NCBI GenBank assembly: GCA_029251375.1
Contig: JAQXDL010000010.1
Span: forward strand, 248,001 to 312,000
DNA: 64,000 bases
DNA from: Pseudomonadales bacterium
Lineage (GTDB): Bacteria; Pseudomonadota; Gammaproteobacteria; Pseudomonadales; Azotimanducaceae
Direction: 5' to 3'
Shown here: positions 52,966 to 56,340 of the stretch, in pieces
Layout of the letters: each line of letters starts with the position of its first letter
Position numbering within the stretch: the stretch's first letter is position 1
Made by a program: the position numbers and the translations under genes
Notes under the pieces: generated by a model
Told to the model about the DNA's origin: nothing
The model's input: only the letters and a program-made list of their open reading frames with translations
Databases searched by the model: none

Positions 52966-53763
52966 GTGCTCAGCGCGAGAGAGCTTGAACGCGCTAACAG
53001 TATTACCCAGCCGCGAAGACGAAAAACCTATTTTGCATCACGGGTGCTTCGTAGAAAAATACTCGCTGATGTGATTGCCTGCGACGTGGCTGAACTACAT
53101 TTTGGCAGAGAAGAAACAGGCAAACCGTTCTTACAAAATCATCTGCGTCACTTCAGTTTGACCCATACTGATGAGTTGATTGCTTTAGCAGTTTCAACTC
53201 GCCCTGTTGGCATAGACATTGAACATAGCGAGAGAAAATTTAACCCCCGCCTCGCAAAACGTTACTTTCACCAACAAGAAAATTCGATTCTTTCAGCCGA
53301 TGATAACTTCAACTTGACCTTTGCGAGCCTGTGGACGCTTAAGGAGGCTTACGCCAAGGCAACCGGCGCGGGTATATTCGCATCAATATCTAAGTTACAG
53401 GTCGAATCTATTTCGCCAACATTAACTATTACCAGTGATCAAAACATTCATTCAGCAGGGTGTTGGCGATTTGATGGTGAGCATAGCTCTCATCCTAGCC
53501 ATGATCCTAGTCCTAGTCCTGATCCTAGACCTGATCCTAGACCTGATCCTAGTCCTGATCCTAGTCCTGATCATCACAACGCCACATGGAATAAAACAAT
53601 GCGCCAGAAGAAGAACTACACGCTATCGGTTGCTTGTCTGGACGCAGCAACATCACCACGCGTTGACCCTAGCGAGCAGGTCACAGAGACGTCCTTGCAA
53701 AGGGTCAATGCAGACTTTAGTTTGCAGGACTTACCCGCTATTTGTATTGCTCAAATCGTCTAG
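52966..53763 (+). CDS. Sfp-type 4'-phosphopantetheinyl transferase with internal repeat
   Basis: Transfers the phosphopantetheine arm of CoA to carrier proteins. The Mg2+ and CoA sites are VGIDIEHSER (Asp84, Glu86) and WTLKEAYAKATGAG (Trp123, Lys126, Glu127, Lys131). Residues 180-202 are a Pro/Asp-rich tract made of DPSP/DPRP units, inserted in the loop between GCWRFDGEH and YTLSVACLD. From GTG 52966 the usual first 20-25 residues are missing; homologous-looking codons (CADLTIDDLALQYT) continue upstream in frame to at least 52921, but no ATG, GTG or TTG precedes them. The true start may be non-canonical or lost by frameshift. No carrier-protein or PKS/NRPS gene is nearby. Confidence 0.83.
   Translation: MLSARELERANSITQPRRRKTYFASRVLRRKILADVIACDVAELHFGREETGKPFLQNHLRHFSLTHTDELIALAVSTRPVGIDIEHSERKFNPRLAKRYFHQQENSILSADDNFNLTFASLWTLKEAYAKATGAGIFASISKLQVESISPTLTITSDQNIHSAGCWRFDGEHSSHPSHDPSPSPDPRPDPRPDPSPDPSPDHHNATWNKTMRQKKNYTLSVACLDAATSPRVDPSEQVTETSLQRVNADFSLQDLPAICIAQIV
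53491..53574. repeat. 12-bp in-frame minisatellite inside the phosphopantetheinyl transferase gene
   Basis: Unit GATCCTAGWCCT occurs five times at 53503-53568 (with a 6-bp partial duplication after the first copy), flanked by a degenerate copy at 53491 and GATCAT at 53569. As the unit is four codons, copy changes keep the frame. Confidence 0.9.
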
Positions 53764-54890: not shown

Positions 54891-55016
54891 TCAACCGTAG
54901 GCTAACTTGAGCATTTCCTGTACAGCAACTACTTGCGTGCCCCAGAAGATTCCCCAACCAACAACGATTGCGACGGAAACTAGAACCGACATTCGTTCTA
55001 ATAGTTTTTTGTTCAT
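54891..55016 (-). CDS. 41-residue single-pass membrane micro-protein
   Basis: Short gene of 42 codons. ATG 55016 has a textbook AGGAG six bases upstream. The translation MNKKLLERMSVLVSVAIVVG continues with WGIFWGT and ends AYG: a basic N-terminus, one transmembrane helix (about 10-30) and a short tail. It lies 31 bp after the DUF6644-like gene on the same strand and is probably the third gene of that operon. A small subunit or regulator of the membrane pair is plausible. The function is unknown. Confidence 0.7.
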   Translation of the reverse strand: MNKKLLERMSVLVSVAIVVGWGIFWGTQVVAVQEMLKLAYG

Positions 55017-55047
55017 ATCGTGCTCCTATTCACCTGTTTCCAATGTC

Positions 55048-55524
55048 CTACGAGAAACCAATCCAGCGACCGGATGCGGCGACGCTAAACCAAATAAGGA
55101 TGCTCGTTACTGCAATAATTTTGATCGACCAGGGATTCAACTCACTATGGTCGCCATTCAACAAAGGTTTCCTGATCAAGTAAAAGAAACAGACACCCAT
55201 GAACAAACCCACCATCTTCGATAAGAAGAACACATTGTAGTAAAGCTTAATGGCAACCGCTGACATCATAAATATGCCAGAAAGTACGATTGCGACGAGC
55301 GCATAGCCAACCCACCTCTCGGTATTTTTTAAAACGACCGGTGCGGGGATATCAGACATCGTAATGTTCAACAAGCGAAGATCGCCAACCAAAATCATGC
55401 CGCCCAATAGAACCATCGCGCCAAGATGAAATGTCTGCACCACCGCAAATACACCACCGTAGGCTTTGGATATCTCAGCTAACATTGAGGTGTCTATCCA
55501 CTCGAACAAAAATAAAAGATCCAC
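55048..55524 (-). CDS. DUF6644-like four-helix membrane protein A
   Basis: 158 residues with four transmembrane helices (about 22-48, 70-92, 97-115 and 131-150). His32 in QTFHLGAMVLLGG and the ...ASGRWIGF end are typical of DUF6644 proteins, which are uncharacterised and resemble cytochrome-b-like four-helix bundles. It starts at GTG 55524 with AGGAG that overlaps the stop of the upstream gene (55534), giving translational coupling. The conserved His residues could bind haem, which is inference. Confidence 0.75.
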   Translation of the reverse strand: MDLLFLFEWIDTSMLAEISKAYGGVFAVVQTFHLGAMVLLGGMILVGDLRLLNITMSDIPAPVVLKNTERWVGYALVAIVLSGIFMMSAVAIKLYYNVFFLSKMVGLFMGVCFFYLIRKPLLNGDHSELNPWSIKIIAVTSILIWFSVAASGRWIGFS

Positions 55525-55533
55525 GTCTATCTC

Positions 55534-56109
55534 CTAATCCAGTTCAGCCAGTTCATTGACACAGCCCGCCGCCCAATACATAAAGCCGGGCATCGCCTTG
55601 TGACAATCCCACCAGTCGTAGGCAATCATTCGGCCCGTCATGATGACGCCTGCCCAAAAGGCAATCGACAAGCCACCACTAATGCGAACCCGCCTCGGCG
55701 GTACCGGATCATTGTCCCATGACAAATTTTCTTGTTTGGTGATGTTACGCAGCAATAGCGCATTGATACCCGCTGCGATTAACAGCACGACTTTAATTCT
55801 GAACCAAATGCTGGTGGTAGTGCGAACCGGGATCGCGTAGTAAAGCAGGAAACCCGTCACAACCATGACAGCGAAGCCAAACATCATTGGCTTATCTAGC
55901 CGTTCAGCAACCTTTGACACGGGCACATCTTTGAAGATGTAACCAAGCATGCGTAGATCAATCACCACCAACATGCCAAGAAATATTATTAAGGTCAGTA
56001 CGTGAGTCGATTCAACCCAGTTGTAGACATAGTAGGATTCATGCAGATCAGTGGACCACTGCTGCGCGTCGAGCCAGAGAGCCAAATCAAAAAGAAGCTG
56101 GTTAAGCAC
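55534..56109 (-). CDS. DUF6644-like membrane protein B
   Basis: 191 residues from GTG 56109, a longer relative of the downstream protein with the same core: VESTHVLTLIIFLGMLVVIDLRML parallels the downstream QTFHLGAMVLLGG. There are about four to five helices plus a loop rich in Pro/Arg (NDPVPPRRVRIS) and a C-terminal extension (GRMIAYDWWDCHK). It is the first gene of a three-gene operon with a paralogous DUF6644-like protein and a micro-protein. A His in the first core helix is shared by both. Confidence 0.72.
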   Translation of the reverse strand: MLNQLLFDLALWLDAQQWSTDLHESYYVYNWVESTHVLTLIIFLGMLVVIDLRMLGYIFKDVPVSKVAERLDKPMMFGFAVMVVTGFLLYYAIPVRTTTSIWFRIKVVLLIAAGINALLLRNITKQENLSWDNDPVPPRRVRISGGLSIAFWAGVIMTGRMIAYDWWDCHKAMPGFMYWAAGCVNELAELD

Positions 56110-56240
56110 TGATATTCCCGTTTATTCTTATTATGCATCCCATAATACCCTTTGATTGAAAGCACGCAATAAACTCATTCAACCTAATAAATTACTATCA
56201 GTGACTTGATGATGCTCTTGATAAAACCAGCAAAACATTT

Positions 56241-56340
56241 GTGACGTGGTGCAACGCAGTAAAATTCAGTACGACGGGACACAACGAGGTACAACAAGGC
56301 ACAACAAGGTACAAAGGAGTAAAACGAGCTGAAACGTTGT
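56241..56340. repeat. Degenerate 10-bp tandem repeat between divergent operons
   Basis: Ten consecutive 10-bp blocks with a shared RYAACRAGGT-like pattern; the clearest are ACAACGAGGT, ACAACAAGGC, ACAACAAGGT and ACAAAGGAGT at 56281-56320. They lie between the DUF6644-like operon (minus) and the MATE gene (plus), spaced close to one DNA helical turn. The whole 291-bp gap (56110-56400) has no gene. Confidence 0.7.

Follow-up and report, generated by a model that had tools for sequence, protein, structure and literature searches.

The cassette lies within the window, by which we mean the whole stretch of 64,000 nucleotides that was analysed. It consists of three minus-strand frames, here called A, B and M, which an earlier note had placed at 54891-56109 and which we confirmed at those coordinates. 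In window positions its features are the following.

55534..56109, minus strand: A, a 191-aa DUF6644 membrane protein with a GTG start (PF20349 46.7 bits, model pLDDT 89.9), with four long helices and a C-terminal tail carrying the invariant Cys169 and Cys183 (alignment A4, 83 rows)
55048..55524, minus strand: B, a 158-aa DUF6644 membrane protein with a GTG start (PF20349 181.2 bits, model pLDDT 91.2), with four long helices and an invariant C-terminal GRWIGFS (alignment A3, 85 rows)
54891..55016, minus strand: M, a 41-aa single-helix micro-protein with an ATG start and the motif W..Q....E.L..AYG, in which Gln28 is invariant
55531..55535, minus strand: AGGAG, the ribosome site of B, which overlaps A's stop; read from the sequence
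55023..55027, minus strand: AGGAG ribosome site of M, six bases 5' of its ATG, read from the sequence
56142..56169, minus strand: possible promoter TTGCGT-16 nt-TATTAT, 5' of A; weak, from a two-sequence alignment by eye

The start of B follows the stop codon of A after 9 bases, and since the ribosome site of B also overlaps that stop codon, translational coupling of A and B is plausible. The ribosome site that had been claimed for the micro-protein was likewise found. The promoter-candidate block is mostly retained in one congener, as judged from an alignment of two sequences; a consensus promoter scan does not list it, and the promoter and terminator scan gave a yield no higher than that of its shuffles. 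The divergent neighbour of the cassette is a MATE transporter gene, and the next gene 3' of M encodes a Gfo/Idh/MocA oxidoreductase. The latter was considered as a member of the cassette and rejected: it also follows M in the congener L010, but was seen, by eye and within 400 nt, in none of the other loci compared. A and B are the only DUF6644 genes of their genome. Two repeats were noticed nearby: an intergenic 10-nt repeat (CACAACAAGG, 3.5 copies) upstream of A at 56280-56314, which is absent in one aligned congener, and a tandem 12-nt repeat at 53493-53572 (5.2 copies, 96% matches in 53511-53572), which sits in the plus-strand frame 52966-53763 and encodes a Pro-Asp-Pro-Ser/Arg run.

Both A and B pass the cut-off of 27 bits for DUF6644 (PF20349). 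They are 23% identical to each other by BLASTP (E 7e-13) and match at 99.3% probability in a profile-profile comparison, and on these sequence grounds we take A and B to be paralogues. The AlphaFold2 models place helices at residues 26-55, 64-92, 101-124 and 139-163 of A and at residues 23-51, 61-89, 98-122 and 131-151 of B, which agrees with the description of two related four-helix membrane proteins in the earlier note; residues 154-158 of B, part of the invariant GRWIGFS, were modelled at pLDDT below 50. We aligned 85 B sequences and 83 A sequences, with some near-duplicates omitted, and assembled a wider DUF6644 set of 72 sequences by sampling one in four of the A and of the B sequences and adding 29 paralogues shorter than 230 aa, excluding one fusion protein. 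A His in helix 1, a Lys in helix 3 and a Gly-Arg in helix 4 are invariant in all 72, so that the conservation which had been expected of the shared helix-1 His was indeed observed. These positions correspond to His36 and Lys106 in A and to His33 and Lys103 in B; in either protein the Gly-Arg closes helix 4, and each chain holds a single invariant His. The two Cys residues of the A tail have no counterpart in 22 sampled B rows, which suggests that Cys169 and Cys183 may form a periplasmic disulphide. By the positive-inside rule, applied by eye, loops 1-2 and 3-4 of A and B would be cytoplasmic and both ends periplasmic, while the helix limits would put the invariant His, Lys and Arg of A and B, together with Gln28 of M, in the outer part of the membrane. 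A literature search returned no paper naming DUF6644, PF20349 or DUF6152.

The earlier note had seen in the shared His a hint of haem binding. HemJ (UPF0093, PF03653) is a haem-binding protoporphyrinogen oxidase, and DUF6644 was compared with it and with CopD (PF05425). A matched UPF0093 at E 5e-4 (20.7 bits, below the cut-off of 34.2) and CopD at E 0.0026 (18.5 bits, below the cut-off of 32.1), and B was listed for neither. In single pairwise comparisons, a wide DUF6644 profile matched HemJ along helices 1-3 (E 6e-4, probability 29%) and a set of five CopD-like sequences along helices 1-2 (E 1.5e-4, probability 52%), the helix-1 His being in register both times; HemJ and CopD profiles matched each other at 68% probability, and the narrow A and B profiles matched HemJ at 5.5% and 0.3%, which is not significant. 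These values are a hint, not proof, that DUF6644, HemJ and CopD may share a common superfamily. Since the His aligns with both HemJ and CopD, it would suit haem and copper proteins equally well and marks a wider group rather than a cofactor; it is invariant, but by itself no proof of haem. It is improbable, in our estimate, that the cassette encodes a HemJ-like oxidoreductase acting on a porphyrin or other small molecule with M as its stabiliser. Such a reading draws on the match of A to UPF0093 and on the alignment of both the helix-1 His and the helix-3 Lys with HemJ, but the motifs PRLFVYH and NE.P, invariant in 12 aligned HemJ sequences (A5), are absent from the invariant and consensus residues of A3 and A4, the score of A stays below the family cut-off, and the own genome encodes a separate true HemJ (E 2.7e-35), as do 36 of the 38 relatives, among them all 12 DUF6644 carriers. 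A new protoporphyrinogen oxidase was discarded as the main reading, as the genome already has HemJ.

Comparison with known structures gave generic four-helix bundles. Neither A nor B matched any solved-structure sequence at E up to 10, and Foldseek returned no match with E below 0.001 for either model. A second fold comparison ranked designed and natural four-helix bundles at the top, several haem proteins among them, at scores that may mean little for bundles when Z is under about 13; the best matches fell in this range, with 7ah0 for A (Z 11.0, rmsd 2.0, 104 aligned residues) and 6w6x_A for B (Z 10.9, rmsd 3.0, 123 aligned). The cytochrome b561-like 4o6y_A matched A at Z 8.4 (rmsd 4.3, 138 aligned), a score that bundles commonly reach.

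M is short, as a chance reading frame might be, and the earlier note had proposed to look for it beside DUF6644 pairs in other genomes. Scanning a species-level genome collection with an alignment of B gave 340 relatives. The 80 best were carried forward with their DNA, so that counts out of 80 refer to the closest of the 340. These 80 are of mixed source, mostly metagenome-assembled genomes labelled Gammaproteobacteria or Pseudomonadales (OM182, K189A and Pseudohongiella included), along with one entry labelled Dehalococcoidia and one labelled Rhodoferax. An M profile was trained on 11 sequences, with 10 of the 80 loci in the training and 70 outside it, some of the latter close to training sequences. 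Within a search range of -60 to 500 nt relative to the stop of B, the profile matched in 80/80 loci, including all 70 non-training ones; the weakest match beside B had E 1.2e-6, and the best match elsewhere, among 37,135 six-frame segments, had E 0.15. With starts set by script at the nearest ATG, a choice on which the spacing and length figures hinge, B and M are separated by -4 to 100 nt (median 18), M is 39-54 aa long, and a ribosome-site-like 4-mer lies within 16 nt of the M start in 51/80 loci. Furthermore, M of the window compared with M of L053 gave dS 1.08 and dN 0.079 (dN/dS about 0.07), and pN was lower than pS in all 19 further disjoint pairs, at a mean of 0.064 vs 0.383. The M codons are under purifying selection and M is a real gene. 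The frame is thus conserved as had been anticipated, and a chance reading frame, to which we would give almost no probability at all, is refuted by its presence in 80/80 loci together with purifying selection.

Across 57 aligned M sequences (alignment A6, the own M and 56 from the 80 loci) Gln28 is invariant and Trp25, Leu36 and Ala39 are found in at least 90%, while the N-terminus is variable. The own M had no match in Pfam or NCBIfam, and the other 56 aligned sequences gave scattered weak matches to these databases (E 0.0056 or worse, at most two members per family, with the family cut-offs not displayed). Against solved-structure sequences M had two matches, both at chance level. As far as searches of Pfam, NCBIfam and the literature reach, M is a new micro-protein family. 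The likeness to cytochrome bd or formate systems suggested in the earlier note found no sequence support, as no cytochrome bd small-subunit model was among the Pfam and NCBIfam matches of the 57 sequences.

M is tied closely to B. A lies directly upstream of B in 79/80 loci, A not being found for L126. In a sample of 194 genomes of the order, M was present in 9, exactly the 9 whose best DUF6644 match beats E 1e-40, whereas the 12 further genomes with DUF6644, none matching better than E 1.7e-27, all lack M. Among 38 relatives M occurred in 11 of the 12 DUF6644 carriers and in 0 of the other 26, and in a sample of 369 genomes of the class it was found in one, the window's own, while DUF6644 matches no better than E 3.5e-8 occur in 3 others. 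Across the three samples M occurs only together with this B type, and where found it is single-copy and adjoins B. Cultured carriers of M include Pseudohongiella and Povalibacter uvarum. The position of A upstream of B in 79/80 loci and of M downstream in all 80, and the confinement of M to this B type, point to three subunits of one complex. Alternatively M might be a co-transcribed regulator or assembly peptide and no structural subunit, which we regard as unlikely. Its variable N-terminus and its absence beside two divergent A-B pairs (G010, G177) would suit such a peptide, but its single copy beside B, the invariant Gln, the conserved C-terminal motif and the lack of any M without B in the three genome samples speak for a subunit. 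We also noticed that in L012 and L035 a divergent A-B pair is followed by a same-strand NUDIX-like gene, recognised by eye, in place of M. In G002, of the same genus (L196), the assembled B gene has a disrupted reading frame, although the adjoining M is intact, and a CxxCH lipoprotein gene lies beside the cassette; the disruption may reflect an error in sequencing or recent gene loss.

Outside the A-B-M clade the arrangement is looser. We hand-picked 20 regions with other DUF6644 genes from the genome-sample matches and found 13 pairs (11 by the gene list, and L156 and L158 through profile matches), one fusion and five single genes; the one DUF6644 match of a further region, L161, was missed by the gene list. 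The fusion (L157:2173-3204) is natural and joins two DUF6644 domains in one 344-aa protein. The single genes (L160, L163, L165, L168, L170) lie directly beside DUF6152 with no adjoining paralogue, and such loci look like a simpler, two-gene form of the system. In the tree of the 72-sequence set the A-type and B-type proteins each form one clade, each with support 0.996. When the tree was midpoint-rooted (the support of its deep split was not printed), 8 of the 11 complete pairs had one member on either side (L153, L154, L155, L159, L166, L167, L171, L172) and three did not split (L162, L164, L169). The two clades, the split pairs and the two-domain fusion argue for A and B as a heterodimer, and an old duplication retained as such would explain the A-B-M clade and the 8 split pairs most simply. 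In view of the five single-gene regions and the three unsplit pairs, DUF6644 as a whole obeys no pairing rule, and the family can also work without a paralogue. Thus the expectation that the paralogues stay together held within the clade and failed in five of the 20 regions outside it. Similarly, the heteromeric complex with a small subunit that the earlier note had thought plausible fits the linkage, the paralogy, the conserved M and the fusion, while as a strict rule of pairs it fails beyond the clade. A plasmid search gave 6 records with a weak B relative; four regions were looked at, two of them unannotated.

The neighbourhood of the cassette holds five recurrent partner families. Within 6 kb of A-B-M in the 80 loci we found HupE-like proteins in 27, secreted 'PDLxG' proteins in 11, an anchor protein in 10, a CxxCH lipoprotein in 8 and DUF6152 in 8; 49 loci hold none of the five within this distance, and only 51 loci span 5 kb on both sides. 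In the own genome the partner set lies at a separate locus, L194, with genes for the cytochrome lipoprotein, DUF6152, HupE-like and anchor proteins; the HupE-like protein and two 'PDLxG' proteins there were identified by eye. The lipobox-like protein has CxxCH in 9/9 aligned sequences. Among the 38 relatives this CxxCH cytochrome (E <1e-20) occurs in 9/11 genomes with M vs 3/27 others (Fisher 6e-5, kinship ignored), with a weak and interrupted match in G012 scored as absent, and inside the family (25 genomes) the association gave Fisher 0.005, kinship again ignored. DUF6152 occurs in 9/11 genomes with M vs 4/27 others (Fisher 2e-4 overall and 0.015 inside the family, kinship ignored). For both proteins the co-occurrence with M lies inside one bacterial family. 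The co-occurrence of the CxxCH lipoprotein with M and its presence within 6 kb in 8/80 loci suggest that it may be a redox partner of the cassette.

DUF6152 raises the main rival to a redox reading, in which A:B:M would be a CopD-like membrane partner of DUF6152, the latter in the role of CopC, and would move or load copper for periplasmic enzymes; we hold this to be rather unlikely. DUF6152 adjoins DUF6644 in 7/20 regions outside the clade, five of which have a single DUF6644 gene; on a Paracoccus pantotrophus plasmid an annotated DUF6152 lies beside DUF6644, and on a Novosphingobium humi plasmid it is about 2.6 kb from a DUF6644 pair. The DUF6152 protein (own copy L194:6812-7237, contig C25, and neighbours in other loci) starts with His-His immediately behind what looks like a signal peptide and keeps an NPH or PPH motif further on. 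Of 16 aligned, 8 were found via neighbour clustering and 8, the own one included, by the His-His pattern, so the first 8 alone are unbiased for the motif. Mature CopC begins with His, which the DUF6152 start resembles, and by analogy with His-brace copper proteins DUF6152 could be a candidate of that kind. Copper handling is further favoured by a DUF411 gene near DUF6644 in L170, by the lack of a CopD match in the own genome, by the weak likeness of A and of the wide DUF6644 profile to CopD, and by the shared occurrence of DUF6152 and M. Against it, no Met/His/Cys cluster is seen at the invariant positions of the three proteins beyond His36, Met82, Cys169 and Cys183 of A, DUF6152 is near A-B-M in just 8/80 loci, and A falls short of the CopD cut-off. 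Redox transfer seems likelier than copper handling.

Taken together, the finding that A, B and M travel as a set through many bacteria, most of them uncultured, points to a small membrane complex of a kind not yet described, which probably handles electrons or metal. A three-subunit complex A:B:M, whose physical assembly we infer, is well supported by the gene evidence, which covers the linkage of the three genes, the paralogy of A and B, the status of M as a coding gene, the invariant positions and the genetic association. A and B would be a heterodimer of four-helix proteins, maybe distant relatives of CopD and HemJ, in the inner membrane, and M a single-helix subunit packed on B or on the A-B seam with its N-terminus in and its C-terminus out (positive-inside rule, by eye). 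As the invariant residues of A and B and Gln28 of M would sit towards the outer side of the membrane, the working site would face the periplasm, where it would most likely bind haem b or a quinol and exchange electrons with the periplasmic c-type cytochrome lipoprotein, whose gene tends to share genomes with the cassette and sometimes adjoins it. The whole of this reading, an inner-membrane A:B:M complex with a periplasm-facing site in redox exchange with a c-type cytochrome, is the one we favour, tentatively and at somewhat less than an even chance, its assembly, topology, cofactor and electron transfer being inferred. Counted against it are the one invariant His per chain, the weak likeness to HemJ and CopD, the confinement of the co-occurrence to one bacterial family and the similar association of DUF6152, and also the empty Foldseek result below 0.001, the 49/80 loci with no partner, the lack of M in G010 and G177, the unpaired DUF6644 genes and the three pairs that do not split in the tree. 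In a bolder version, A:B:M would be a membrane cytochrome of a new class: the two helix-1 His residues, one from each paralogue, would clasp a single haem b across the A-B interface, and M would complete the site on its periplasmic side. The complex would then be where a periplasmic redox chain of uncultured Gammaproteobacteria, so far undescribed and made up of the c-type lipoprotein, the His-brace-like DUF6152 and the HupE-like protein, meets the membrane; this version we consider doubtful.

M adds a micro-protein family, apparently absent from Pfam and NCBIfam, which is tied to a family with no assigned function. DUF6644 is thereby recast from a single-protein puzzle to a testable three-subunit complex and linked to other unknowns, namely DUF6152, the c-type cytochrome lipoprotein, HupE-like and anchor proteins, so that solving the biochemistry of one could account for several protein families in uncultured Gammaproteobacteria.

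Among known systems, HemJ resembles A and B as a membrane protein of similar length with the helix-1 His and helix-3 Lys in register, but A lies below its cut-off, A and B lack its motifs, and HemJ is encoded separately in the own genome. CopD shows a weak profile likeness with the helix-1 His aligned over helices 1-2, but A lies below its cut-off and the cassette consists of two paralogues and a micro-protein. CydX is a small subunit of cytochrome bd, and small subunits of this type in respiratory complexes resemble M as one-helix micro-proteins encoded beside large subunits, although no such family is among the matches of M and its relatives. DUF6644 (PF20349) itself holds both A and B as members under an entry that names no function, and to it the present analysis adds the A/B-type pairing and M as a third gene.
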